NCBI GenBank assembly: GCA_018499965.2
Contig: JAHBAS020000023.1
Location: 1-44,396, forward strand
Direction: 5' to 3'
Length of the DNA: 44,396 nucleotides
From: Candidatus Uhrbacteria bacterium
GTDB lineage: Bacteria; Patescibacteriota; Patescibacteriia; 2-12-FULL-60-25
Shown: positions 3,423-36,169 of the stretch, piece after piece
Numbering within the stretch: the stretch's first letter is position 1
Layout of the letters: each line of letters begins with the position of its first letter
Notes under the pieces: generated by a model
Told to the model about the DNA's origin: nothing
The model's input: the letters and a program-made list of their open reading frames with translations, nothing else
The model's database searches: none
Position numbers and translations under genes: made by a program

Positions 3423-4195
3423 CGGCTCATGCTCGCCATGAACTGCTCACGACCTTCCGCGTACATTCGTTCAATGTCCTTCAAAGCGAGCTTATCAGAA
3501 TACACCGCAAATCGCGCAACGCTTCCGTTAAAATAGGTTCCATTCGGAACATCGTAGCCGATATACGCTGCCCCGGACTCCGGAACGCGGACTTGAGCTA
3601 TCGAATTATCCTTTTTCCCATCAATATACATCGTCGTAACCACGCCGTCCGAGCTCCATGCGACATGATGCCATTTATTATCATTTATACCCGCTGCCGC
3701 CGATTGTTGGGCTACCGGAGTCCCCGTATTGTAATACGCGAATAAACGCCCACTACTCACGCCAAGAAAAAGACCATTCCCTCGATTGCTGAAAAATGGG
3801 ATTTGCGCACCGCTTGTCGTCCGAATCCAAGCCGCTACCGTCACGCGTTGAGGCAACGTGATCGTTCCGAGTGAAACGTTTTGACCGGTAGCGGAAAAAC
3901 GAAGCGCCGGATTTCCATCCGGACCATCCGTAACCCATGTCGCACCGGTAATCGTTCCCGCTGCACCCGTTCCAAAACGGTTAGCCACGGTTGTGCCAGA
4001 TCCTTCATCAAGATCCCATACACCGATCGCATCCGAACCCTGGGCATTTAATGCCGTCCGCGCAAAACTCAATCCGCTCGCGAGACGAGCCTTTTCTCGC
4101 GATCCGGAAAGCTGCACAACCGCAAACGTTGAGAGAACGCCGATGATCGCAATGACCACCAGGAGCTCGATAAGCGTGAAACCGCGCTTCTGCAT
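3419..4195 (-). CDS. Type IV pilin-like protein with LamG/concanavalin-like domain
   Basis: 258 residues. The N-terminus MQKRGFTLIELLVVIAIIG is a perfect prepilin leader and methylation motif (cleavage after Gly, then FTLIE). It is followed by the hydrophobic helix that packs in the pilus core. Residues about 55-250 form a LamG-like jelly roll, with WDLDEGSGTTVANR, WHHVAWSSDG and MYIDGKKD typical of LamG/laminin-G-type sugar- or surface-binding domains. It would be processed by a PilD-type peptidase (not in this window) and displayed on a pilus or pseudopilus. The stop overlaps the recJ start. The start is supported by an extended -10 (TGTTATACT) 6 nt upstream. Confidence 0.88.
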   Translation of the reverse strand: MQKRGFTLIELLVVIAIIGVLSTFAVVQLSGSREKARLASGLSFARTALNAQGSDAIGVWDLDEGSGTTVANRFGTGAAGTITGATWVTDGPDGNPALRFSATGQNVSLGTITLPQRVTVAAWIRTTSGAQIPFFSNRGNGLFLGVSSGRLFAYYNTGTPVAQQSAAAGINDNKWHHVAWSSDGVVTTMYIDGKKDNSIAQVRVPESGAAYIGYDVPNGTYFNGSVARFAVYSDKLALKDIERMYAEGREQFMASMSR

Positions 4196-4201
4196 AAGGA
4201 G

Positions 4202-4210
4202 AGTATAACA
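4202..4210 (-). promoter_or_regulatory. Extended -10 promoter of the pilin-recJ operon, leaderless
   Basis: Minus-strand TGTTATACT (TGn plus TATACT) ends 6 nt before the ATG at 4195. Transcription would start at or next to the start codon. It abuts the terminator of the upstream unit (4212-4248), so one unit ends and the next begins within about 50 bp. Confidence 0.6.
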
Positions 4211-4211
4211 G

Positions 4212-4248
4212 AAAAAAAATTGATTAAGGAGTATCCCTCCTTAATCAA
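4212..4248 (-). terminator. Rho-independent terminator of the lepA / small-peptide unit
   Basis: Perfect 12-bp stem (TTGATTAAGGAG with CTCCTTAATCAA) and a 5-nt loop, followed on the minus strand by eight T. It lies after the stop at 4275. Confidence 0.9.
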
Positions 4249-4274
4249 TCCTTTCGCAGTCAACTCAACTCTTT

Positions 4275-4400
4275 TTACTGCCCGATCTGTACGAACGGCA
4301 AGACCATGGAAAAAATCATCGAAAGCGCCACGAAAATCACGAGCGTTTTCCACAGCATTTGCTTGATAACTCCTTTCTTTTTATTCGGGGGATTCGTCAT
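4275..4400 (-). CDS. 41-residue single-span membrane peptide
   Basis: A short open frame beginning MTNPPNKKKGVIKQMLWKTL and ending in ...VLPFVQIGQ, with stop TAA at 4275-4277. The N-terminus is polar and Lys-rich. Residues about 16-36 form one hydrophobic helix (LWKTLVIFVALSMIFSMVL), predicting a cytoplasmic N-terminus and a single membrane span. The frame sits alone between lepA (46 nt upstream) and a strong terminator just 27 nt downstream of its stop. That placement argues it is a real gene, probably co-transcribed with lepA. No family is recognised, and no function is proposed. Confidence 0.6.
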   Translation of the reverse strand: MTNPPNKKKGVIKQMLWKTLVIFVALSMIFSMVLPFVQIGQ

Positions 4401-4446
4401 AGCATTTAGATATTTCAAGGGGAAGATTCAATCATTCAAACCCACC

Positions 4447-6258: not shown

Positions 6259-6397
6259 GAGTGCACGGATCGTACGCGAAAATAGGAGAAAAAGCAAGAT
6301 TTAGGCCCGCATAGGAATGAACATCGCCCGCCATTCACAAGAGAACCCCCCTTGTGTTAGGCTGCCCTCAAGAAAAACCAATATCAAAGGAACCGCT

Positions 6398-6874
6398 ATG
6401 CCCTACGAATCCCCCTTCTCCGCTGAACAACCTGTTTCTCAAGAGCAAGAACCCGTAAAGCAATACGGAACCATCGAACTTTCCGACGAAGAGCAGGAAC
6501 GCCTAGATCAAGCATCCTCGGGGTCTTTCGAACCGCATCCCACACTTCCGAACGTGGAAGTTCAACAGATGTCCGTCGAAGAATTACCGACGAGCATTCA
6601 AGAGATCATCAAGAACCTTGGCGGCAAACCAACGTCATACGCCGCCATTCGCACAAAAGCAGGAGTTCCTCTCCATCGACACACGAATGACGGAGAAGTC
6701 TACTTCTCCGGAAACGGGGCGATCGTCACACTTCTGGATGAACATCGACAGGAAATCGGACGCGTCACATTATCCGAGAACGCCTTTACTGCCACTCGTA
6801 TCAACCAGTGGCACAGCGTCACGAATCAAGACGAAGCCGAATCGCTGTTCTTCGGAGCAAAATTCTCCTCGTAA
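6398..6874 (+). CDS. Small cupin-fold protein
   Basis: 158 residues. The first 60 are acidic and low in complexity. The rest is one cupin domain. Cupin motif 1 is exact: G-V-P-L-H-R-H-T-N-D-G-E-V-Y-F-S-G-N-G fits G(x)nHxH(x)4E(x)6G. Motif 2 is reduced to HSVTN, fitting H(x)3N. These His/Glu residues normally hold a divalent metal. The substrate cannot be told from sequence. The start ATG at 6398 follows a Shine-Dalgarno AAAGGA with about 6 nt spacing, so this gene has a conventional leader, unlike most of its neighbours. It is divergent from lepA and convergent with the DUF5666-like gene. Confidence 0.8.
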   Translation: MPYESPFSAEQPVSQEQEPVKQYGTIELSDEEQERLDQASSGSFEPHPTLPNVEVQQMSVEELPTSIQEIIKNLGGKPTSYAAIRTKAGVPLHRHTNDGEVYFSGNGAIVTLLDEHRQEIGRVTLSENAFTATRINQWHSVTNQDEAESLFFGAKFSS

Positions 6875-9521: not shown

Positions 9522-11507
9522 TTATCGTCCCGGAGGAGTACCCATCATCATGACGCCACCCATGCCTCCAGCAGCGCTCCCCCTGCTCGCATTCGTCGCT
9601 GCAGATGTCTTCGTCGTGGCGCTACTTCCTTGAACCGTTCGGACGATGACATAATCACCTTCCGAAAGCCCGGATGAAATTTCCGTGAGTTCGTCATTCG
9701 ACAATCCGGTCGCAACCTGGACAATTTCAGGATCGTTCGAAAGCTCAACACCATCCGTCGAGAGCGCCGTGGACGCGTCAACGCCCGTGACGCGACTCAC
9801 TGTTGAAGCGCCCGAAACATCCGTCTGGATCGCAGCGTTTTCCACCGTAAGCACATCGACGCTTGCGTTCGTCACGATCGCCGCAGAAGCGCTCATGCCC
9901 GGCTTGATCGTATCCCCTTCCGTTTCAAACGCGATCTTCACGCCATACGACACCACGCCTTGCGAAACCGTACCGATCTCATCGACTTCCGCCACCGTAC
10001 CGACGATCGTCATGTCGGAAACCGCATCAAACGTCAACGTCGCGCGCTGCCCGACTTTAACCTTGGCGATATCCACCTCGTTCAACGTGATCTCCGTGAT
10101 CTTCGACTTCGTAAACAACGTCGCAATAGACTCCGAAGCTGAAGCTTTTCCGTACACCGTAGCCGTCACATCAGCGATCCTGCCGTCGAACGGTGCACGA
10201 ACGGTATACGACGCAAGCTCCTCCTGTTTATCTCCGAGCGTATTCCGGGCGGACTCAAGCGACGATTGGCGCTGCGCGATGGACTGCTGCGCATTCGTAA
10301 TCTCCGAAGCGGTCGCACCGGCCATCAGATCCTTCAAGGACAATTCCGCTTCTTTCACCTTCTCTTCCGCGCTGGCGAGTTCAGATGCGTCCGGCCCGTC
10401 TTTCAATTCTTGCAACACGTCTTTCGCGGTCTGCAAACTGCGTCCAGCATCCGCGTACGACGTTTGCGCGTCTTCGATCGCATGGCGCGCGCTTGAAACC
10501 ACGTTCGTCTTCGATGAAACAGACGTTCGCGCGGATGAAATCGAACTCTTCAAGGAGTCCAAAGAACTCTGCGTGAACGATGAAGACGTGATCGAATATT
10601 TCAAAGCCGCTTCAACGTCCGTCAAAAGCGCTTCCATCTTTTCAACGCAAGTAAGGGCCTCGGCCAACGCCGTATCGATCTTCGCGGTCTCTTCGTCAAA
10701 GAGCTTCAAATCTTCCGCAACGGCTTTAAAGTCCTTCAAACTCGCCTTTGCGGCATAATAAGAAAGCGTTGACTTAGAAAGCAAGCTCGTATTCAATCCC
10801 GAAATATATCGTTCATACGCATCATTCTTTCCCGCCTCATCGATGCCAAGTACCGCATCCGCCTTATCAAGCGCATCCTGAAACGTTTGCAACATCGTGG
10901 CGATATCCGACGAAGCATCGTCGTACGCATCCCGCACGTCTTGCGGCATGGAACCGTCACGCGTGAGTCGTGCTTTTTCTTCCGCACTCTCAACCGACTG
11001 TTCCGCCTTACGCAATTCGTATGCGTTCGCACCCTTCTTCAAATCTTCAAGATCGCGCTTTGCCTTGTTCAACGTATTCTCGGCCTGCGTGACTTTCAAT
11101 TCATCCGGCGGATCCGTCAATTCTTTTAGAGAAAGCTTCGCTGCCGCAAGCGAGAGCTCCGCATCATGAACCGAAAGCGATGCATCACGAACGGCCTTCA
11201 CCGCCGTTTTCCCGTCAATGGTCATTAAAACGTCTCCAGCCTTCACTTCATCGCCGGATTTCACCACGATACTCGTAATATCGCCGGCAACTTCCGGCTT
11301 GATCTCGATCTGTTGTTCGCCGGACACCTGACCACTCCCGGTTACGGTCGTAACCACGCTCCCTTTCGTCACCTGAGCCAAGACGTATCGAACCGTCTCT
11401 TTGTTACCGGAGCTCTTCGTATACCAATACCCCCCGCCGATCACAAGGATCAAAAGAGGAATAAAAACGTATTTCTTGGCTAAAATAAGCTTTATTTTCT
11501 GCATCAT
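9522..11507 (-). CDS. MacA/HlyD-type membrane fusion protein with an unusually long coiled coil
   Basis: 661 residues, well above the roughly 370-400 of MacA. One N-terminal span (about 8-27, KYVFIPLLILVIGGGYWY) is followed by a split lipoyl/barrel-sandwich domain: GSGQVSGEQQIEIKPEVAG and SIVVKSGDEVKAGD at the N-side, SYTVRAPFDGRIADV at the C-side. Between them lies about 350 residues of Ala/Leu/Glu/Lys/Ser-rich helix, compared with about 100 in MacA. Beta-barrel and membrane-proximal domains follow, with a Ser/Thr/Gly/Met-rich tail. The start at 11507 (ATGATG) was chosen because it places the membrane span at the N-terminus. Longer starts add a non-conserved stretch. It is the first gene of the exporter operon. 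Confidence 0.85.
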   Translation of the reverse strand: MMQKIKLILAKKYVFIPLLILVIGGGYWYTKSSGNKETVRYVLAQVTKGSVVTTVTGSGQVSGEQQIEIKPEVAGDITSIVVKSGDEVKAGDVLMTIDGKTAVKAVRDASLSVHDAELSLAAAKLSLKELTDPPDELKVTQAENTLNKAKRDLEDLKKGANAYELRKAEQSVESAEEKARLTRDGSMPQDVRDAYDDASSDIATMLQTFQDALDKADAVLGIDEAGKNDAYERYISGLNTSLLSKSTLSYYAAKASLKDFKAVAEDLKLFDEETAKIDTALAEALTCVEKMEALLTDVEAALKYSITSSSFTQSSLDSLKSSISSARTSVSSKTNVVSSARHAIEDAQTSYADAGRSLQTAKDVLQELKDGPDASELASAEEKVKEAELSLKDLMAGATASEITNAQQSIAQRQSSLESARNTLGDKQEELASYTVRAPFDGRIADVTATVYGKASASESIATLFTKSKITEITLNEVDIAKVKVGQRATLTFDAVSDMTIVGTVAEVDEIGTVSQGVVSYGVKIAFETEGDTIKPGMSASAAIVTNASVDVLTVENAAIQTDVSGASTVSRVTGVDASTALSTDGVELSNDPEIVQVATGLSNDELTEISSGLSEGDYVIVRTVQGSSATTKTSAATNASRGSAAGGMGGVMMMGTPPGR

Positions 11508-17710: not shown

Positions 17711-18571
17711 ATGAAATCTGGATTTGTCATTCTTGCCGGACGATCAAATGTCGGCAAGTCCACACTTTTAAACGCACTCATCGGATCAAAAGTCGCGATC
17801 ATGAGTCCAAAACCGCAAACCACGCGCCATCCGGTCCGTGGCGTTTTACATGATCCCCGAGGACAAATCGTGTTCGTGGATACCCCGGGTCTTTTTCTTG
17901 GACAGAAAGATCCGGTTTCCAAAAAACTCAATGACCTCGTAAAGGCATCTCTGGATGGTATCGATGCCATTATTTACGTCGTAGATCCGGTACGAGCCCC
18001 AGGAGAAGAAGAAGCGCAAATTCAAAAAATGCTGAAGGCGGCGAATGTACCGATTATCCTTGCCGTCAATAAAAAAGATCTTACCGAAGAACAACGACCC
18101 CACCTTGAAGAATTCCGAGCGATCGATGTTGGACAGGAAGGAAGCGTAGAAATCAGCGCAAGAACCGGCGCGAACCTCAACCTCATCGTCAATAAGCTTT
18201 TTGAACTCCTCCCAGAAGGCGAACCGTTCTACCCGGATCTTCAACTCACAGACCTCACGAATAGCCAGTGGCTTTCGGAGCTCATCCGGGAAAAATGTTT
18301 TTTGGCGCTCAATCAGGAACTTCCCTATTCCGTGCACGTCCACGTAGAAAGCGATGAACGGGACGGAAGGCTTCGCCGCATCACCGCCGTCATCACGACC
18401 AGCGAAGAACGGTACAAGGGCATGATCATCGGAAAAGGCGCGCAGAAGCTCAAAGAAATCGGCACAGCAGTCCGACGCGAGCTTGAAAGCGTCACAGGTG
18501 ATAAAATATTCTTGCAATTACAAGTCGACGTTGATCCGAAGTGGCCGCAGCGATTCGCCGACGCGCAATAA
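17711..18571 (+). CDS. era: GTPase Era
   Basis: 286 residues, within the Era range (about 290-300). Era binds the 3' end of 16S rRNA and helps 30S assembly. The GTPase motifs are G1 GRSNVGKST, switch region TTRHPVRGV, G3 DTPGLFLG and G4 NKKDL. The C-terminal KH domain has the GxxG loop in IIGKGAQKLKEIG. The start is MKSGFVILAGRSNVGKS. No Shine-Dalgarno sequence is visible; a possible -10 (TACATT) lies 8 nt upstream. It is 34 nt after the pilin on the same strand. Confidence 0.97.
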   Translation: MKSGFVILAGRSNVGKSTLLNALIGSKVAIMSPKPQTTRHPVRGVLHDPRGQIVFVDTPGLFLGQKDPVSKKLNDLVKASLDGIDAIIYVVDPVRAPGEEEAQIQKMLKAANVPIILAVNKKDLTEEQRPHLEEFRAIDVGQEGSVEISARTGANLNLIVNKLFELLPEGEPFYPDLQLTDLTNSQWLSELIREKCFLALNQELPYSVHVHVESDERDGRLRRITAVITTSEERYKGMIIGKGAQKLKEIGTAVRRELESVTGDKIFLQLQVDVDPKWPQRFADAQ

Positions 18572-18582
18572 CATACCTATCC

Positions 18583-19404
18583 ATGGCTTTTGAGAGGGGC
18601 ATCTCATCACCACCACAAACTCCGCAACCGCGCGAAGAACGCATTTTGCATACGCCCGAACAAGGAAACGACGAACTCCCACCATCGATTCAAGATATCG
18701 GAACATTTTTTCGATACATTCGCCGCGAAGACCTTCTCGGACCGGACACTGCCCGTGACCGACACGCACGCGAGTACGCCCTGATCAAAGCCCTGGATGA
18801 AGCGAAAACAAAATACCACACAGACCAAACCGCGCTCACACCACTTGAACGAAAAGCGAGGCAACACCATATCGATCATATTCGAAAACTCATCTGGCGT
18901 CTTTCAACCGCAAAAGAAAATAGCGAACCATCAAAGGATGAAGCAACGGCATCCGCCAAACAGATCGCAAAAACCATCGAAAGCACGGAATACGAATGGA
19001 CGGAATCTCCCGAAGACCAGCATGATTGGGAAGAAGCTCGACGAGAACGTGCGGAATGCTATCAATTACTTGCAACAGCCTTTGAGCACGACGTGACGGG
19101 AAACGCGTCCATCCCACACAGTTTTCTAGCATCCAATCCGCACATTCTTTCAACATACGGACCAGTCATCAAACTCAAACAATTCCTGGAGCAAGTGGAA
19201 TACGAATACGGATCCCAAGAGTACCAGGCCATGACTGCGTACGATCATCGCCGCCGGAAAATCGAAGAACAGAAACTTCAAGAACTCCGACGCGTTCGCG
19301 ATGAATTGTATACCAGCTACCTTTTTCCAAATCTCGCCAAAGCTATGCACGCCTCGGAGCGCCATCAAAAAACGCAAAAGCCTCAAAAACGCCGTGCCGC
19401 ATAA
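18583..19404 (+). CDS. Hypothetical charged helical protein
   Basis: 273 residues from MAFERGISSPPQTPQPREER, 11 nt after the era stop, so probably in the same unit. The first 35 residues are polar and Pro-rich. The rest is strongly charged and predicted helical, with Glu, Lys, Arg and Gln dominating (RKARQHHIDHIRKLIWRL, DHRRRKIEEQKLQELRRVRD). The C-terminus is basic (HQKTQKPQKRRAA). There is no signal peptide or membrane span, so it is cytoplasmic. I do not recognise a family. Its style resembles the orphan at 26520-27137: a disordered, charged N-terminus followed by helices. Confidence 0.7.
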   Translation: MAFERGISSPPQTPQPREERILHTPEQGNDELPPSIQDIGTFFRYIRREDLLGPDTARDRHAREYALIKALDEAKTKYHTDQTALTPLERKARQHHIDHIRKLIWRLSTAKENSEPSKDEATASAKQIAKTIESTEYEWTESPEDQHDWEEARRERAECYQLLATAFEHDVTGNASIPHSFLASNPHILSTYGPVIKLKQFLEQVEYEYGSQEYQAMTAYDHRRRKIEEQKLQELRRVRDELYTSYLFPNLAKAMHASERHQKTQKPQKRRAA

Positions 19405-26519: not shown

Positions 26520-27137
26520 ATGAACATGCCAAAATTTTTTGAACATCCAACTCCCCATAGCGAATTTCCTCCTGAAAAAAGCGAGGCCTCTGGCATTCGT
26601 TCACATACGCCACCAACAGGCGAAGAAACAGATGTAGACCTTGAACCTCTTGCGGAGAGCGCAAAACGAGAAACCTCTGCTATGAACGCTCGATCAAATA
26701 TCTCGCGAACGTGGCAGGAGCCTCAAAAACCACAATTCCGAGAAGGGTCTGGAATCCTAGAAGGAACGCTCATGAAAACGGATGCGGAGCATAGAACGAC
26801 ATCGGATCAAGAAATTCAAACGAAGATCGAGGAAGCGAAACGGGACGTTTCCATTGCATTCGAAGACCTTACATTCGATACGAATCCGGAAGAGGGTCTC
26901 GAAGTGCTCAAAGAACTCATTGAAACACACGAGCACAAAGCGCACGTCATCAAGGCTATCTATCCGATCGCTATGGAGGACATGTTGCGCCGATACCTGA
27001 ACGCGAACTCGGATCTTATCGAGGCCTACCAAAAAGAACCCGGTGCCACAGAACTCATCGCGAATATCTACATCGTCTTACGAAACGACATCGCAAGTGA
27101 AGACATCATCGACATCGAAGACGACATGGCTGCATAA
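26520..27137 (+). CDS. Hypothetical acidic protein under a strong promoter
   Basis: 205 residues from MNMPKFFEHPTPHSEFPPEK (alternative Met at 26526). The first 90 residues are polar and likely disordered. Residues about 95-200 are predicted helical and acidic (FDTNPEEGLEVLKELIETHE, AMEDMLRRYLNANSDLIEAY). There is no signal or membrane span. I do not recognise a family. It is a monocistronic unit: a perfect TTGACA promoter at the 5' end and a perfect 10-bp terminator hairpin 23 nt after the stop. This implies high expression of a lineage-specific cytoplasmic protein. Confidence 0.7.
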   Translation: MNMPKFFEHPTPHSEFPPEKSEASGIRSHTPPTGEETDVDLEPLAESAKRETSAMNARSNISRTWQEPQKPQFREGSGILEGTLMKTDAEHRTTSDQEIQTKIEEAKRDVSIAFEDLTFDTNPEEGLEVLKELIETHEHKAHVIKAIYPIAMEDMLRRYLNANSDLIEAYQKEPGATELIANIYIVLRNDIASEDIIDIEDDMAA

Positions 27138-27682: not shown

Positions 27683-28522
27683 ATGCTCGCCATCCTCATC
27701 ATTACCGGAGCCGCGTTTTTCCTGGAGTTATCGTCTTCTATCGGAAAAGTCGAGATCCAAAAACGACGCGAAAGCATGTATGCCATGGGATTCCTCTCCA
27801 TGATCTGGGGATGCTTCATCTTCGGAGGCATGATCCTAGCCCGCGGAAATCTTGGCTTCGATATCGCCTCGCTCCCAACCTTTGGACTTCGTGCCATCCT
27901 GGAAATCTTCCAAGCCTACGTCTCTCTCCGGGCCATCTCGGAAGCCAGTCGGACAACCTACAGCTTCATCCACGCCGGGACCGTTCCGATCATCCTCATC
28001 ATCGATCTCTTCCTCATGAATGCGCCGATCGGCGGATGGCAAATCATCGGCATGGCAGCGATTCTTGGAGCGATGATGATCCTTTCGTTCAACCACGGCA
28101 TCGACCGAAAGGGACTTCTCTTCGTCATTCTCTCAACCGTCAATGCCGCTATCACGATCTCGCTCTATAAATACGATATTTCTCATTTTAACAGCGTTGA
28201 AGGCGAGCAATTCCTCATCCTCCTCATCCTCCTCGCGTACTTCACGATCGCTGCCCGCGTCTTTTACAAAGAACGTCCATGGCAACTCCTTAAAAAACCC
28301 GTCTTCCTTGCGCAATCCGCCACGTATGGCATCGGACACGTGCTTGATAGCTTCGCTTATCTCTTCGGGGTCGCATCTGTGATCACAGTGACAAAACGTG
28401 CCGCGAGCACCTTATGGGCCCTAGTTTCCGGACGCATCGTGTTCCATGAAAAAAATCTTTTCGTAAAAATAACCTGCCTGTGCCTGATCGTAACCGGCAT
28501 CGTGCTTCTGAATATCCGCTAG
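27683..28522 (+). CDS. EamA/DMT-superfamily transporter
   Basis: 279 residues with about ten hydrophobic spans in two repeats, the architecture of the drug/metabolite transporter superfamily. Recognisable segments include PTFGLRAILEIFQAYVSLRA (first repeat), GAMMILSFNHGIDRKGLLF, and the end GRIVFHEKNLFVKITCLCLI. These proteins move small metabolites, amino acids or nucleotide-sugar-like compounds across the inner membrane. The substrate cannot be read from the sequence. The stop TAG shares a CTAG palindrome with the stop of the convergent gene. Confidence 0.85.
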   Translation: MLAILIITGAAFFLELSSSIGKVEIQKRRESMYAMGFLSMIWGCFIFGGMILARGNLGFDIASLPTFGLRAILEIFQAYVSLRAISEASRTTYSFIHAGTVPIILIIDLFLMNAPIGGWQIIGMAAILGAMMILSFNHGIDRKGLLFVILSTVNAAITISLYKYDISHFNSVEGEQFLILLILLAYFTIAARVFYKERPWQLLKKPVFLAQSATYGIGHVLDSFAYLFGVASVITVTKRAASTLWALVSGRIVFHEKNLFVKITCLCLIVTGIVLLNIR

Positions 28523-29283
28523 ACGGAAAAGAGGGCTTTCGTTTGCATGATATCTTCCGGACTTGCGGCGTAGATGATCGGCTCAATATGCTCTTTGGCA
28601 AAAGCCCGAAGAAGCTCCTGAGTCATTTCTTGCGCGATCTCTGCATTCAATAAATACGAATTCGGCAAAAAGACGCCATAGAGCGGATTAGCTTTTAAGG
28701 CACCGAGCGTATCAGGCGCTGGAGCAGGAACGCAACCGGAGAGCACGATGTCCGGACGAATGCCTCGGATGAATTCGACCGCTTTTTGGACCTTCCCGAT
28801 ATCCATACCGATCTGCAAACTCACTTCTTTTACAAAAGCGAATCCGAGCTTCGTTCGTAAACGATCCTGCTCTTCACGCAGGCGCCCAGGGTCATAAAAC
28901 GGATTATACGCGCAAGAGACATGCAAGCCATCCGCAAGTCGTGAATCGTACATAGCATGAAGAGCCTCCAAGGAATCAAATGTTCCGCGCGGGTATCCGC
29001 TCACGATCATGATGCGACGAATGCCGTTTTTCTTGGCATCGTCAACGCGTTTTCGAAACGCTCCTCGTCCAGCGTCAACGCCGGACTCTCCGCAGTGCCT
29101 GGCAGAAATATAGATGGCGACATCCGCCTCGGGGAAACGTTCACGAACCCATCCGGCAGAAATCACCGGATCGGATGCGCGATCCGTATCCGTCATATCG
29201 AGCTTTAAACCCTGAAGCGACGACAACGGTGCTTCATATGCCTCAACTTCCTCAGATGCTCGAATCGTCAATTCAAAACGCAT
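28519..29283 (-). CDS. MTHFR-like TIM-barrel protein (tentative)
   Basis: 254 residues from MRFELTIRASEEVEAYEAPL. This start is supported by -10 TATCAT 8 nt upstream. The pattern of strands and helices suggests a methylenetetrahydrofolate-reductase-like barrel: AKKNGIRRIMIVSGYPRG is like the GvrNILaLrGDp segment, HVSCAYNPFYDPGRLREEQD is like gvagYPe.Hpea, and the following LGFAFVKEVSLQIGMD is like GADf.iTQ.ffd. The key folate/FAD residues cannot be confirmed by eye, and the protein is shorter than MetF (about 290). The role is therefore only a suggestion. It is convergent with the EamA gene, with overlapping stop codons. Confidence 0.5.
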   Translation of the reverse strand: MRFELTIRASEEVEAYEAPLSSLQGLKLDMTDTDRASDPVISAGWVRERFPEADVAIYISARHCGESGVDAGRGAFRKRVDDAKKNGIRRIMIVSGYPRGTFDSLEALHAMYDSRLADGLHVSCAYNPFYDPGRLREEQDRLRTKLGFAFVKEVSLQIGMDIGKVQKAVEFIRGIRPDIVLSGCVPAPAPDTLGALKANPLYGVFLPNSYLLNAEIAQEMTQELLRAFAKEHIEPIIYAASPEDIMQTKALFSV

Positions 29284-29350
29284 ATAGGCATATGATACGC
29301 TAGAAACACCTAAAAAAGAAGGGAGATAAAGAAAAAATGAATTCTTCCTA

Positions 29351-29385
29351 AAAGCCGAAACGCTCCCGTGAAAATCACGGGAGCG
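29351..29385 (-). terminator. Hairpin terminator downstream of the orphan island's first gene
   Basis: Perfect 11-bp stem CGCTCCCGTGA / TCACGGGAGCG with a 3-nt loop, followed on the minus strand by TTTCGGCTTTT. It lies 58 nt after the stop at 29444. Confidence 0.75.
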
Positions 29386-29443
29386 CGACGACGGAATCGC
29401 GTAAAGACGCGACATGTAAAAGCAGCGCAAGAGAAAAGAACGG

Positions 29444-29827
29444 CTAACGGGACGACTTTGATGGAACGGATCGATGAACGCAGTCGCGTGACGAAAAGCC
29501 GCATCCGCAAACCTGTCCCATCGGGGGTGGCGGGAGACTTTGACGCTTTGCTTCCGTAACAAGTCGCACGAAACGCTCAAACTGCAAACCTCCTGGAATC
29601 TCAATCTCATCTTGTTGCTCAGGCGATGCGCTGAGAAAATCGATGATGACCTGCCTAGGAATATCTGCCTGACATAGAAGCGCAGCAGCAGCCTTCACCC
29701 ACGCGGGTCGAATAGCCACAGGAATATCAGTTTCTTCGGGGGCGAATCGAGAAAGCGTAGCAGCTTCAACAAGAAACGGCTTAATGAGACAGAGCTCATC
29801 TGAAACCTCATTGGATTCTTGCGACAT
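29444..29827 (-). CDS. Orphan island protein A, small Cys-containing
   Basis: 127 residues from MSQESNEVSDELCLIKPFLV. The start ATG at 29827 is 5 nt after a strong Shine-Dalgarno sequence (AAAGGAGG), so the longer in-frame reading to 29926 is rejected. Residues 1-90 are acidic and helical (WVKAAAALLCQADIPRQVII, DFLSASPEQQDEIEIPGG). The C-terminus is Pro-rich, then Cys/Arg-rich (VCGCGFSSRDCVHRSVPSKS), which could bind a metal. No family is recognised. A possible promoter TTGCGG-N17-TACGGT precedes it. It shares the conventional leader and Shine-Dalgarno style of the other island genes. Confidence 0.7.
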   Translation of the reverse strand: MSQESNEVSDELCLIKPFLVEAATLSRFAPEETDIPVAIRPAWVKAAAALLCQADIPRQVIIDFLSASPEQQDEIEIPGGLQFERFVRLVTEAKRQSLPPPPMGQVCGCGFSSRDCVHRSVPSKSSR

Positions 29828-29890
29828 TATAACCTCCTTTGCAAGACCAGAACACCGTACATCCAAGAAGAAAAATCCGCAAGATAAGCG

Positions 29891-29929
29891 AAAACCCGTA
29901 CAAGAAGTGACATCACTTGCCTGCACGGG
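29891..29929 (-). terminator. Long imperfect hairpin with T run between two island genes
   Basis: A 35-nt inverted repeat beginning CCCGTGCAGG and ending ACGGG on the minus strand, centred on AAGTGATGTCACTT, followed by TTTT. It is probably the terminator of the upstream gene (stop at 29951). It contains the 14-nt imperfect palindrome noted, which could also bind a protein. Confidence 0.6.
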
Positions 29930-29950
29930 TCGCGATAACGGGAAAGAGCA

Positions 29951-30523
29951 TCAAGGACCGGTAGACCGTATCCGCGCAAGGCAACGTTTCGCCTCTCGCT
30001 CATTCGCAAAACACATGATCGTGTACGTATCGTGCGTACCGATCGGACCGATCATCAATCGGGTTTCTGCCGTCAGACTGAAAGGAATAACATAACTCAT
30101 TTCCCTCCCACCATCCGTTGACGCGCACACGAAAGACAACGCGTCGCGCGAGACTTCGAATCGCAGACCATGCCAAGACACCGGAGCGTCTACGGCAAGG
30201 GGCAAAATTGCATCCGAAGCGTCCATAACATTGATGATGAGAAGATATCCGATGGGCTCGGATGCTTTTGCGAGTGCGATCTTGAGCCTACGAAGACGCT
30301 CATCCACCTCGATCAACGCCTCTCGGGTCGCTCGACGCTTTTCATCCTGAAGAGCGATAGACTGACAAATCTTCGCCCGTCTTCCAGCGCCACCATCATT
30401 CGCTTTAGAGGCCTTCTTGACCTTCCTAACCCTTCTCAAAGCCTTCTTTGTATTAGCTACTCGCTGCTTCTGAGATGGAGCCTTTCGCTTCGGTGAACCT
30501 GATTTTACGATCAATTTACTCAC
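29951..30523 (-). CDS. Orphan island protein B, Lys/Arg-rich N-terminus
   Basis: 190 residues starting with GTG at 30523, 5-6 nt after AGAGGA. Residues 1-50 are very basic (KRKAPSQKQRVANTKKALRR, VRKVKKASKANDGGAGRRAK), resembling a nucleic-acid-binding tail. Residues 51-90 are a charged helix. Residues about 95-190 form a compact alpha/beta region (SWHGLRFEVSRDALSFVCAS, YTIMCFANEREAKRCLARIR). No family is recognised and no signal is present. It is divergent from the acidic protein at 30743; the two -35 elements are 35 bp apart. Binding DNA, RNA or the acidic partner is a guess from charge only. Confidence 0.7.
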   Translation of the reverse strand: MSKLIVKSGSPKRKAPSQKQRVANTKKALRRVRKVKKASKANDGGAGRRAKICQSIALQDEKRRATREALIEVDERLRRLKIALAKASEPIGYLLIINVMDASDAILPLAVDAPVSWHGLRFEVSRDALSFVCASTDGGREMSYVIPFSLTAETRLMIGPIGTHDTYTIMCFANEREAKRCLARIRSTGP

Positions 30524-30582
30524 GAAATCCTCTTTTCTTATTCCTGGAAGGAACGGCTATTTACGCCAAAATCGGCAGCGAG

Positions 30583-30610
30583 ACTGTATCAAAATATCCT
30601 ACATTGTCAA
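30583..30610 (-). promoter_or_regulatory. Promoter of island protein B
   Basis: Minus-strand TTGACA (30605-30610), a 16-bp spacer and TACAGT (30583-30588), with TG one base before the -10 (TGATACAGT). It implies a leader of about 50 nt with a Shine-Dalgarno sequence. Confidence 0.65.
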
Positions 30611-30645
30611 GTAAACACGACGGATAAACGAATCATCAAATTACC

Positions 30646-30674
30646 TTGACAAATCTGTCTTTTTTCGGTATACC
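30646..30674 (+). promoter_or_regulatory. Promoter of the acidic island protein
   Basis: TTGACA (30646-30651), a 17-bp spacer and TATACC (30669-30674). The leader would run about 60 nt to the GTG at 30743. It is back to back with the minus-strand promoter of protein B, a layout suited to joint control. Confidence 0.7.
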
Positions 30675-30742
30675 CGAAGCCTCTTACACGACCTTTTTCA
30701 CCCTATCCTTCTGAGTAAGAGCAGAAGAAAGGAAACAAGACA

Positions 30743-32347
30743 GTGACCACCAACGATCAGCCAAATACCAACGCCGAAACCACCAATGCCGAGCAGCAGC
30801 CGCAGGAGGATCAGAAGCTCATTCGCGTGACCTTGAAGCAAACAGGGGCAAGTGATGAATTCCCTGCGTACGCACAGCTCTGCATTCACGTATGCATCCG
30901 AACCCCTGAAACAAGGATGCGAACGCAACCCTTTATCTTCTCCAAGACCAAGGGCAGACAAATCATCCAATCCCTCCAGAAACAGGACGACAACGATCCG
31001 ATAAGGCAGCTTCAATTCGCTCCGGCCATCCAAGCACTCATTCAGCCTCAATATGTGGCTGGCCTACAATCCTGCCTTGCCGAACTCGAAGCATCGGATC
31101 TACCTGAAGGAGAAACTCGCCTCGACAAGCTCTCCAAAACGACGCCGATCCCTATTACGCCGGAAATCCTAGAAACGCTCCTGCAGGTCTACGACCACAT
31201 CTCCATCGCTTTCATCAGAGCCAAGCGAGAAATGCCTGCCCATTTCTCAATGAAGCTCACCGAGAATGACGCGGATGGGGACGCCCTTCATTTCTACTCA
31301 CGCGAAGCCTTTCGGGAAGACATCGTCAAACAACGAGACGAATTCGGATTCCTTTCGGATCATCAAGCGGCATTCTTCCTCGCGGCCATTACGCCGAATG
31401 GGGACAGCTACCCGGATATCCCCGAAGGGAAAACGGTCTACGACGACCTCGTCGCTACACGCAAAATCGAGCATCCGTGTATTCATCGCGAAAACGGAAA
31501 GGCATCCGTCATTACGGCGATACAGAATGCTCACGCGGGCATAGCGGCGAATCCAAAATGGACAGTCTGTGAAAACTGCGGCGGCTACCACTGCGGAATC
31601 CATTTCGGAATCTACGGCATCCGCCTTTTCACGGCGACAGACGTAGAGACGGCTGAAAAAATCATGCCGCTCCTCGGTTCAGTCTTCATCAACGAAGAGC
31701 AGCGCGAAACGCTCTTCGGACAGCTCTGCAGCATCAAGGCGCGGCTAGCCGACGACGAGGAAAAAGTCCGAGATAAGGAAGATGACGACGATCTGAACGA
31801 AGACGATGACCTCGATGAGGACGAGGAGAAAGCGTGGAACGGCGAGGGGTCAACACCGGCAAGCGATGACGATTCGGGGGATGATGAAGAGGATGACGAG
31901 AATCCGAATACGGACTCCCTCCATCCTGCAGTCCAACCCGATGAGATCAACGAAGATCCGAACGACGACGATGACGCCGAAGACGATCCAAAAGGCGAGA
32001 TCGAATCAGACGACGAAGACGATGCCGATAACAAGGGTAGCGAAGGTGGCGAGCATGACGATCAATCAGATACGGACGAAGCATCTCCAGAACCCGACGA
32101 CGATCACGCGGATCCGAGTGAAGGCCCAGGAGAGGCGACGCCGGAGCCGGAGAACGTGGACGGCACGACACCGTCGGATCCCGAGTCGCCACCCGTAACA
32201 CCAATCCCACCCACGCTTCGTCCGGAGCAATCAGCGCCCGCGCCCCAAGCAGACGATCAAAAAGCAGAAGAACCGTTGAATGCCTTTACGGAGCAACTTC
32301 GCACGGACCCCGTCAGAACCAACGATCAAACAACAGCTCAAACCTAA
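30743..32347 (+). CDS. Orphan island protein C, large with CxxC/H cluster and 200-residue acidic tail
   Basis: 534 residues starting with GTG, about 10 nt after GAAAGGAAA. Residues about 25-335 are a folded region. Within it, C276-x2-C279-x3-H283-C284-x2-H287 (VCENCGGYHCGIH) looks like a zinc site. Residues about 335-534 are almost entirely Asp, Glu, Pro, Ser, Gly and Asn (EDDDDLNEDDDLDEDEE and similar), surely disordered and highly negative. Parts of residues 30-215 align by eye with the next island gene (PAI...Q, then TRLDKLSK against TRFDKLVK; FGFLSDHQAAFFLAAITPN against LGHLRRQDADRIIASVNPS). There is no signal or span. No family is recognised. A DNA-mimic or chaperone-like role is conceivable but unproven. 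Confidence 0.75.
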   Translation: MTTNDQPNTNAETTNAEQQPQEDQKLIRVTLKQTGASDEFPAYAQLCIHVCIRTPETRMRTQPFIFSKTKGRQIIQSLQKQDDNDPIRQLQFAPAIQALIQPQYVAGLQSCLAELEASDLPEGETRLDKLSKTTPIPITPEILETLLQVYDHISIAFIRAKREMPAHFSMKLTENDADGDALHFYSREAFREDIVKQRDEFGFLSDHQAAFFLAAITPNGDSYPDIPEGKTVYDDLVATRKIEHPCIHRENGKASVITAIQNAHAGIAANPKWTVCENCGGYHCGIHFGIYGIRLFTATDVETAEKIMPLLGSVFINEEQRETLFGQLCSIKARLADDEEKVRDKEDDDDLNEDDDLDEDEEKAWNGEGSTPASDDDSGDDEEDDENPNTDSLHPAVQPDEINEDPNDDDDAEDDPKGEIESDDEDDADNKGSEGGEHDDQSDTDEASPEPDDDHADPSEGPGEATPEPENVDGTTPSDPESPPVTPIPPTLRPEQSAPAPQADDQKAEEPLNAFTEQLRTDPVRTNDQTTAQT

Positions 32348-32409
32348 CCAAGGAGGTCACTGTCTTCTTACCATCAAGGATCATCTCCGATCTTTGATGT
32401 CTCAACAAG

Positions 32410-32447
32410 GGCCCGCCTATCGCATACGTGCGATGAGCGGGCCTTTT
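32410..32447 (+). terminator. Rho-independent terminator of protein C gene
   Basis: Two-part stem, GGCCCGC / GCGGGCC and ATCGCA / TGCGAT separated by a 2-nt bulge, with a 4-nt loop, then TTTT. It is 62 nt after the stop. Confidence 0.85.
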
Positions 32448-32464
32448 ACGTTTCATAGCCTACC

Positions 32465-32493
32465 TTGACCTTTCCCAAAAACTCCCCTACGAT
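32465..32493 (+). promoter_or_regulatory. Promoter of island protein D
   Basis: TTGACC (32465-32470), a 17-bp spacer and TACGAT (32488-32493). The leader to the ATG at 32580 is about 80 nt. Confidence 0.6.
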
Positions 32494-32579
32494 CATCTCC
32501 TCTCGCGATTCTCCCGATCCTTTGACCTCACATTCGTCTTGATCAACGCGAAGATTAAGACATACGGAAAGAAGGCATC

Positions 32580-33257
32580 ATGCAGTACGCAGTCCAAACG
32601 ATGACGACACATTCAGAACCAATCTTCGCCCTCTCGTTCGAATTCGTTCCAGCGACACCGAGCATTCAACTACCGGATCGATTCATCGTTCGAACATCCG
32701 CCTGTATCAAACAGGTAGGTAAACCGATCGTTCGACCAGTTGGAGACCGCACGATTGACGGAGCGTTCGCTTCAAAAGTCGGAGGGTACATCTACCTATC
32801 CCTCGAACGATCCATCAAGCTCGCGGAAGAAATTGTCACGGAGTACGGGCTCAACCCCACACTGAGTAGCCTCCTGCAGCCAGCGATATTCGCCGAATTT
32901 CAAAGCATGCACCCCGTATTCGACAAACTCTGCGAGCAGCACCCCTTACCGACCCCTCTCACGCGCTTCGACAAACTCGTGAAGAGATATAGCACCAAAG
33001 AGGAGCACCCCGGGGGAGCTATTCAATGGGTCGAGACAATCCTTCGCGAAGAAATAACCTCAAAAAAAACGCTCTATTGGCTAGAACGCGTGTCGGACGG
33101 ATGGGTATTTAAATCCATCATCGCCATTCCAGATTGGACGGAACGGGTATTCCCATCTTCGGCAGAAGCTGAAAACGGCATACGCAGAATGCAAAAACTC
33201 GGACACCTTCGCCGACAAGATGCGGATCGCATCATCGCATCCGTGAATCCTTCGTAA
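32580..33257 (+). CDS. Orphan island protein D, paralogue-like short form of protein C
   Basis: 225 residues from MQYAVQTMTTHSEPIFALSF, 4 nt after AAAGAAGG. It is mixed alpha/beta with no signal, no span, and no Cys cluster or acidic tail. Several blocks line up in order with the folded region of protein C: LLQPAIFAEFQ with FAPAIQALIQ, TRFDKLVK with TRLDKLSK, and the C-terminal LGHLRRQDADRIIASVNPS with FGFLSDHQAAFFLAAITPN. The alignment is by eye and weak in between. No outside family is recognised. It has its own promoter and terminator, so it is a separate unit next to protein C and before tRNA-Gln. Confidence 0.72.
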   Translation: MQYAVQTMTTHSEPIFALSFEFVPATPSIQLPDRFIVRTSACIKQVGKPIVRPVGDRTIDGAFASKVGGYIYLSLERSIKLAEEIVTEYGLNPTLSSLLQPAIFAEFQSMHPVFDKLCEQHPLPTPLTRFDKLVKRYSTKEEHPGGAIQWVETILREEITSKKTLYWLERVSDGWVFKSIIAIPDWTERVFPSSAEAENGIRRMQKLGHLRRQDADRIIASVNPS

Positions 33258-33273: not shown

Positions 33274-33320
33274 AACCCGTTTGCCGCTCTTCTCCAAGGC
33301 AAGCGGGTTTCGTGTTTTTT
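33274..33320 (+). terminator. Rho-independent terminator of protein D gene
   Basis: Stem AACCCG-TTGCC / GGCAA-CGGGTT with single-base bulges, followed by TTTCGTGTTTTTT. Confidence 0.8.
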
Positions 33321-34494: not shown

Positions 34495-34940
34495 ACCGAC
34501 GATGGCGTCGATGCATGCGCATATGATACCACTGATTGACGAAGCGTTTCCGTTAATCGCTCGAGCCGCTCCTGCGAGGATGTACCGATGAGATGCGCGA
34601 TGTCAAAAAGATCCGTATGCTCTATGGGCGCTTGCAATGCTAATTGCCATACCGGCAAAGACGTTTCCGGAATAGATGCAATGAGGTATCCGCGCTCCAA
34701 TAACCATGTGCGTAAGGCGAGATCAAAACGAGGATCCTTCATTCCAATGCGCTCAATGCCGATCGAAAAATCATCATACTCCCCCACCTCAACACGCGAA
34801 GGAATGCCACAAGCCTGCCACTCATCAAGCGACGCCTCGAGAAGATGCGGCGTGGATAAATGCACACTCACGCAAGCACCTCCGGAGATCACGAGTTCCG
34901 CAAGAAATTGATGGTTCGCATTAAAAATTAAACGAATCAT
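34491..34940 (-). CDS. Hypothetical 149-residue protein in the ftsEX operon
   Basis: 149 residues from MIRLIFNANHQFLAELVISG. The start ATG overlaps the stop of the upstream gene as ATGA, and its own TGA overlaps the exchanger start, so both ends are fixed by coupling. It looks like a small soluble alpha/beta protein (beta-rich residues 1-70, helices after 75, such as ERLERLTETLRQSVVSYAHA). No signal, span or known motif is visible. Longer in-frame starts reaching 35048 lie inside the upstream gene and are rejected. Confidence 0.75.
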   Translation of the reverse strand: MIRLIFNANHQFLAELVISGGACVSVHLSTPHLLEASLDEWQACGIPSRVEVGEYDDFSIGIERIGMKDPRFDLALRTWLLERGYLIASIPETSLPVWQLALQAPIEHTDLFDIAHLIGTSSQERLERLTETLRQSVVSYAHASTPSSV

Positions 34941-36169
34941 ATGAGGTGGCGGGCACTCGCCTGCGGGTCGCGCATGGCGATCGTCTCTGCAAAACGCCGG
35001 CGGATGTCTGATGCATGATGCGAGGTTACAGAAGCGAGGTCTTGGCACACATGACGAAGGACCTCGATCGAAGGATGACGGGACGGGATCGGAAGTTCAC
35101 CATCCAACCATGCGAGATCCGCAAGTGCGCGATGAATACGATCCGCCGCATCAAATCCATACCCCAGATCCGAAGGGAACGACGAGACGAGATCAGACGA
35201 TGCCGCAGGAGAAGGCGTTACTCGTACTCCTGGACCGTGGAGCACGCGATCCACCCCCAATGCAAACGACGATCGAAGATCGGCTGGAAGTTCATGCAAA
35301 CAACGTTCCGCCTCATGCGCATGCGAAGCACGTACGGCACGATGCAAAAAATGAAGATGGCCGTGTGCAGCTCGCCAAAGAACAAACGTCGGATCGACCA
35401 ACGCGCAAACACGACGAATAGTGGCAATATCAAGCCGGATACCGGAAAACGTATCCCGACGTGCATCTGCCATTCGATACGTACGAAGCCTATGCGACAA
35501 GCCACGCTCCCACTCTCGTTCATCCGAAGCATCAACAGAGAGTGCGGACGTGAAAAGCTCTACCCAATACCGACGCGCACGTGCATCCGTATCTTGAAAT
35601 GGAAGAGAAGAAACGGATACGAATGGCGTATGATCAGGCGAAGATACGCGAGCACGCATGAGGCGAGCGAGCTCACGACGTACCCGTTCGTCATAGAAAG
35701 GTGAACGCCAATCCGATGAAGAAACCGTCGCTCGAACGATCAATCGAAAAAGATCCGAAACGGAATAACCTCCGTGACGGATCATGATATGAACACCGCC
35801 ATCTTTGCGCTGTACGTGAAAAGAAGATTCCTCATGCGGTTCAACGCGAAGTGAACGAAGGCCTCCACGAGAAATCCACGATCGAGGAAAAGACGCATGC
35901 ACAACACGAGCAACATCTTGATTCGAAATCCCGAGATGCTCTTCAAATCCACCAACCTCGCAAACGTGATCGCCCTCATCATGCACGTCTTCCTCAAAAG
36001 AAATTGCTTCCGAAGGATCGACGCATGGACCCACGGCCTCGGTGGTAGCCATACCGAGTTCGCCGATACGGAACGGCTCCAACGCCTGCAGCAATGCCGA
36101 TCGCGAATCCATCTTCGCATGTTCATGCGAAGATATTGACGCGGCGCCCCCTCCGAAAAAATGCTCCAT
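34937..36169 (-). CDS. Hypothetical 410-residue protein in the ftsEX operon
   Basis: 410 residues from MEHFFGGGAASISSHEHAKM, 3 nt after the ftsX stop. The first 95 residues are acidic and likely unstructured. The rest (about 100-400) is rich in Arg, His, Ser and Asp, with predicted helices (HRALADLAWLDGELPIPSRH, RRFAETIAMRDPQASARHLI). There is no signal peptide or membrane span, so it should be cytoplasmic. I do not recognise a family. Position suggests a cytoplasmic partner or regulator of FtsEX. The high His/Arg content and lack of Lys (very few) set it apart from neighbouring proteins. Confidence 0.72.
   Translation of the reverse strand: MEHFFGGGAASISSHEHAKMDSRSALLQALEPFRIGELGMATTEAVGPCVDPSEAISFEEDVHDEGDHVCEVGGFEEHLGISNQDVARVVHASFPRSWISRGGLRSLRVEPHEESSFHVQRKDGGVHIMIRHGGYSVSDLFRLIVRATVSSSDWRSPFYDERVRRELARLMRARVSSPDHTPFVSVSSLPFQDTDARARRYWVELFTSALSVDASDEREWERGLSHRLRTYRMADARRDTFSGIRLDIATIRRVCALVDPTFVLWRAAHGHLHFLHRAVRASHAHEAERCLHELPADLRSSFALGVDRVLHGPGVRVTPSPAASSDLVSSFPSDLGYGFDAADRIHRALADLAWLDGELPIPSRHPSIEVLRHVCQDLASVTSHHASDIRRRFAETIAMRDPQASARHLI

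Follow-up and report, generated by a model that had tools for sequence, protein, structure and literature searches.

The window analysed here, meaning the whole stretch of 44,396 nucleotides, is the entire contig C20 of a genome of 1.11 Mb that is 94% complete. Within it, four open reading frames, A and B on the reverse strand and C and D on the forward strand, were confirmed between a gene resembling MTHFR and a glutamine tRNA gene, which the first-pass annotation had placed beside the block and which was identified as tRNA-Gln(TTG). The genes and the edges of the interval are as follows.

28519..29283, reverse strand: MTHFR-like gene, one conserved edge of the slot, named by eye and without a Pfam match
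29444..29827, reverse strand: gene A, orphan of 127 aa
29951..30523, reverse strand: gene B, orphan of 190 aa
30743..32347, forward strand: gene C, orphan of 534 aa
32580..33257, forward strand: gene D, orphan of 225 aa
33380..33453, reverse strand: tRNA-Gln(TTG), 3' end toward the block, the second conserved boundary of this variable slot

In A, B and D the annotated frame had the better frame score, that of A being the best of six by codon score; for gene C an antisense frame scored nearly as high as the annotated one, but it holds 11 stops. A binning error is not a suitable explanation for the block, because the flanks of the contig are syntenic with those of a congener. Four other genes of the window also lack a Pfam match (6317-6874, 18541-19404, 26520-27137 and 34937-36169).

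Each of the four genes is accompanied by transcription and translation signals, which were located as listed below.

29354..29392, reverse strand: gene A terminator, hairpin of -27.9 kcal/mol followed by TTTTAGG
29833..29840, reverse strand: gene A Shine-Dalgarno sequence AAAGGAGG, -11.2 kcal/mol against the anti-Shine-Dalgarno sequence, strong
29894..29930, reverse strand: gene B terminator, hairpin of -23.0 kcal/mol followed by TTTCG
30528..30533, reverse strand: gene B Shine-Dalgarno sequence AGAGGA, -5.8 kcal/mol, moderate
30583..30610, reverse strand: gene B promoter TTGACA-16-TACAGT with extended -10, 10 of 12 positions matching
30646..30674, forward strand: gene C promoter TTGACA-17-TATACC, divergent from the gene B promoter, 10 of 12 positions matching
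32407..32446, forward strand: gene C terminator, hairpin of -27.9 kcal/mol
32465..32493, forward strand: gene D promoter TTGACC-17-TACGAT, 9 of 12 positions matching
33274..33309, forward strand: gene D terminator, hairpin of -20.0 kcal/mol followed by TCGTGTTTT

The three TTGAC-type promoters with 16-17 bp spacers described in the first-pass annotation were thus recovered upstream of B, C and D, with 59, 68 and 86 nt, respectively, between the -10 box and the start codon, and no clear promoter was seen for gene A. Across the whole region, sequences resembling promoters are no more frequent than chance would give (5 versus 7.4 expected); what matters is where they lie. The individual terminators also stood, a strong hairpin with a T-rich tail lying 3' of all four genes. 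The good Shine-Dalgarno sequences attributed to all four genes held for A and, to a moderate degree, for B, but those of C (-4.0 kcal/mol) and D (-3.5 kcal/mol) are weak, so that strength declines from A to D. Resident genes of the window had been said mostly to carry a -10 box 6-9 nt before the ATG; under a strict test, a TANNNT box 5-10 nt before the start was found in 11 of 29 resident genes and in none of the four block genes, which is short of a majority but far above shuffled sequences (mean 2.5, largest 8). Leaderless starts are here inferred from such -10 boxes before start codons. The accompanying statement that the other genes mostly lack a Shine-Dalgarno sequence was overstated, several operon-internal resident genes having a similar sequence. 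The promoter, leader and terminator build of the block nonetheless differs from that of most resident genes.

The description of A to D as genes of no recognisable family was borne out by every search for relatives. None of the four proteins gave a match above noise in Pfam, PHROGs, NCBIfam or PADLOC, and single-protein searches of 57 relatives returned the genes themselves and sub-threshold noise. For gene A, the comparison with relatives' genomes spans these 57 only. In the class-wide search, no relative of gene B was found among 381 genomes of the class and a two-sequence C/D profile had no further match in 41 family genomes or in the 381 class genomes (291 genera). Pattern scans of viral contigs, run with each of the four proteins and also with the C/D profile, pattern scans of species genomes for C and D, and tblastn searches of phages (B, C and D) and plasmids (C and D) likewise yielded no relative. 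At the sensitivity used, A to D are thus orphans as judged from sequence; since the pattern scans detect close relatives only, very diverged homologues may still exist, and fast divergence could be a source of the orphan status.

The only relationship detected lies within the block. BLASTP gave E = 0.01 for C and D, and residues 20-215 of C are colinear with D at 24% identity, with a score reached by none of 1,000 shuffles. On this alignment gene D and the N-terminal region of C are diverged duplicates, one of which would derive from the other by duplication. Neither A nor B is significantly similar to any other member of the block, and a motif spotted by eye as common to A, B and C/D was set aside as unsupported by shuffles. 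The charge features noted on first reading were confirmed: the basic N-terminus belongs to B, with 27 K/R versus 7 D/E within 85 residues preceding a C-terminal part of about 100 residues, and its divergent neighbour C combines the D-like part (approximately residues 20-215), a zinc-like C-x2-C-x3-H-C-x2-H cluster at residues 276-287 and an acidic tail (341-534) with 73 D/E in the 194 C-terminal residues. Gene A also encodes a cluster, C-x-C-x6-C-x-H at residues 107-118. An internal repeat in C around DLPEGETRLDKL / DIPEGKTVYDDL, with a score reached by 5 of 400 shuffles, is suggestive only. AlphaFold models were unusable both for D with the C/D alignment (mean pLDDT 38.8) and for the isolated C domain (mean pLDDT 36.3), and a sequence search against solved structures gave nothing credible for B and D. 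With low confidence, the four products may be soluble cytosolic accessory proteins, among which B might bind nucleic acid via its basic N-terminus, with the acidic stretch at the end of C as a possible charge partner for B; charge is the sole basis of the proposed nucleic-acid-binding pair.

The genomic setting of the block was assessed by comparing the interval between tRNA-Gln and the MTHFR-like gene in congeners. The MTHFR-like gene has orthologues in two of three congeners, at 42% identity, and within the family it is confined to this genus. In one of them (G003) the order of exchanger, tRNA-Gln, MTHFR-like gene and archease is kept, and the slot of approximately 5.7 kb is occupied by genes for a zinc-ribbon-like protein, a P-type ATPase, an orphan and a sugar-dehydrogenase-like protein, all named by eye. 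In the second (G002, contig C5) the MTHFR-like gene lies 136 bp from tRNA-Gln; the contig breaks inside this tRNA, so that the sequence past its 3' end lies outside the contig. The tRNA-Gln of this congener (L068, 1-73), located exactly at the contig end, is identical to that of the window and inverted relative to the MTHFR-like gene. The comparison with possible empty sites thus finds the block in neither relative, one presenting other cargo and the other an inverted tRNA at a contig end. Given the different cargo of the first congener and the 136-bp distance in the second, the slot is variable, and both congeners that keep the neighbourhood lack the block as a unit. Such a change of gene content from one close relative to the next, between flanks that are conserved, is characteristic of an accessory slot.

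This location on the 3' side of a tRNA, together with the absence from congeners, is also what would be seen if the block were the remnant, or a minimal form, of an integrated mobile element (a plasmid or phage satellite) whose cargo has kept a foreign expression style, a mobile element being one of the possibilities raised in the first-pass annotation. The tRNA-Gln(TTG) of the congener with other cargo is moreover accompanied by exact partial copies, one of 27 bp from its 5' end (L023, 9842-9868) beside the intact gene and one of 34 bp from its 3' end (10022-10055), with the intact gene between both; these are possible scars of past insertion or duplication at the locus. The block itself, however, contains no integrase or transposase, its four genes being without Pfam, PHROG or NCBIfam match, and a search around it for the tRNA 3'-end direct repeat (GGTTCGAACCACGATTCACGG, at most 3 mismatches) matched only the tRNA itself; the best local alignment for a tRNA copy around the block scored 9. 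No relatives turned up in phages (B, C and D), plasmids (C and D), viral contigs or PHROGs either, and the strand skew of the block resembles that of residents. Integration at tRNA-Gln was accordingly rejected, neither repeat nor recombinase being present, and the block is not classed as an integrative element because both were looked for and not found; we consider a mobile-element origin of this kind improbable. In a separate setting (L069, contig C34 of G001), a small ORF identified by eye as a GIY-YIG (URI-like) nuclease (4062-4403) has tRNA-Gln(CTG) on one side and a partial copy of this tRNA, 57 bp long, on the other, an arrangement that suggests a nuclease mini-element inserted into tRNA-Gln.

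Composition was examined as an indicator of the age of the block, which had been described as recently acquired. Its GC and GC3 are ordinary and match those of resident genes, and its third-position G/C skew follows the strand in both orientations as it does in residents, with A (+0.16) and B (+0.29) on the G-rich strand and C (-0.21) and D (-0.25) on the C-rich strand. Since this skew matches resident genes, a very recent arrival is disfavoured. The proposed codon and k-mer check gave a divided answer, for synonymous codon scores of the block fall below the resident mean and positions 29001-33000 deviate more in tetranucleotide make-up than any other 4-kb segment of the contig, though only at z = 2.3 and with a probable contribution from the acidic tail, whereas GC, GC3 and skew are resident-like. 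The broader proposal of an acquired or separately controlled module therefore fits the absence of the block from the two congeners and its differing expression build, but not the recency attached to it. A resident-like composition and strand skew would equally be expected of fast-evolving resident genes, in which case the block would be ancestral in the genus and would have diverged beyond detection, or been lost, in relatives; the identity of only about 24% between the C/D duplicates points to divergence that is fast or old. Such an explanation is at odds with the presence of different, recognisable genes in the same slot of one congener and of almost nothing in the other, as well as with the failure of the two-sequence C/D profile to find anything in family or class, and we regard it as unlikely.

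Many defence islands feature small orphans, divergent gene pairs and variable slots, and the block, with four small orphans, the divergent B/C pair and a variable slot, presents all three. A defence or toxin-antitoxin type module, the former also suggested on first reading, is nevertheless very improbable: the four proteins are without a match in PADLOC, Pfam or NCBIfam, inspection showed no enzymatic motif in them, whether nuclease, ATPase or other, and every gene is separately terminated, unlike the coupled genes of toxin-antitoxin pairs.

The expression style of the block was then compared with the rest of the genome. A genome scan for AGGAGG-N4-8-ATG returned 67 places, versus 31 for the reversed pattern, and in 11 stretches around such sites genes were called with both start signals. 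Among these, 1 of 20 Shine-Dalgarno-led ORFs had a Pfam match, versus 11 of the 20 leaderless genes taken from those stretches (Fisher p = 0.0012), both sets being hand-picked rather than a census, with four of the 20 Shine-Dalgarno-led picks having a moderate Shine-Dalgarno only and some ORFs possibly being false. Promoters matching at least 9 of 12 positions with the -10 box 36-121 nt upstream were found for 12 of the 20 Shine-Dalgarno-led ORFs (17.8% in shuffles), and terminators for 14 of 20 (11% at random places), the latter not significantly different from the 9 of 20 for leaderless genes (p = 0.2). Ten of these ORFs had no PHROG match and two had no relative in viral contigs. Their codon usage is shifted; however, they favour the C-rich strand (13/20 versus 11/40), so that much of the shift is strand bias, and codon usage was rejected as proof of foreignness. 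The set also holds two tandem paralogue pairs elsewhere in the same genome, both orphan and with strong Shine-Dalgarno sequences (L075, 3186-3791 and 3939-4439; L079, 5819-6475 and 6871-8724), the second of which is lipoprotein-like. The block's own expression style, as first described, is thus unlike that of most residents but is shared with other orphans genome-wide; C and D, whose Shine-Dalgarno sequences are weak, fit this class more by leader and terminator. The Pfam-less gene at 26520-27137 has a near-consensus promoter immediately 5' of its ATG, so some orphans are not leadered.

Taken together, we consider it probable that the block represents an accessory gene slot at the species level, bounded by tRNA-Gln and the MTHFR-like gene and holding four self-contained orphan transcription units, three with a visible sigma-70-type promoter 59-86 nt (-10 box to start) upstream and all four with an intrinsic terminator. 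It would be one local cluster of the leadered, Shine-Dalgarno-led orphans seen throughout a genome whose recognisable genes are often leaderless. The block would lack mobility of its own, and its ancestor may have come from a source that has not been sampled, at a time remote enough for a resident-like third-position skew to have developed.

Gene transfer and genomic islands have been documented in Patescibacteria (PMC12455944), and the block resembles the accessory slots described there in its small host genome, conserved flanks, varying content and obscure cargo function; it differs from them in having no mobility genes, a resident-like composition and a start style unlike that of most recognisable genes. 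A second likeness concerns phage gene cassettes. Phage morons are autonomous single-gene cassettes with their own promoter and terminator, and the block genes are similarly all orphans, each with its own terminator and three (B, C and D) with a visible promoter. Unlike morons, however, they combine leader and Shine-Dalgarno sequence although leaderless starts are frequent in their host, and they lie outside any prophage, with no phage gene or relative nearby, the flanks being chromosomal and syntenic with a congener and B, C and D having no phage relatives. The genes are thus moron-like cassettes, yet the lack of a prophage keeps them from being classed as morons. Mixed leaderless and Shine-Dalgarno-led genomes are found in Actinobacteria and Deinococcus, with two start signals per genome, one of which is a -10 box directly before the ATG, as here; the present genome differs in that its recognisable genes and its orphans appear to be divided by the kind of start they use. 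No such split was found in the literature searched.

We tentatively put forward, as a possibility that falls short of probable, that two start-signal dialects sort genes by origin in this genome, leaderless starts marking much of the inherited set and leader plus Shine-Dalgarno starts marking accessory orphans, the block included. If true, the dialect would be a mark of genes that come from a gene pool not yet sampled or that belong to a separately controlled programme. The orphan genes of ultra-small bacteria are many and difficult to classify, and a start style that separates orphan accessory genes from inherited ones would provide a sequence-only handle for picking them out. A common outside pool of orphans would then become testable, and it could be asked whether these genes are separately regulated via their leaders and Shine-Dalgarno sites.
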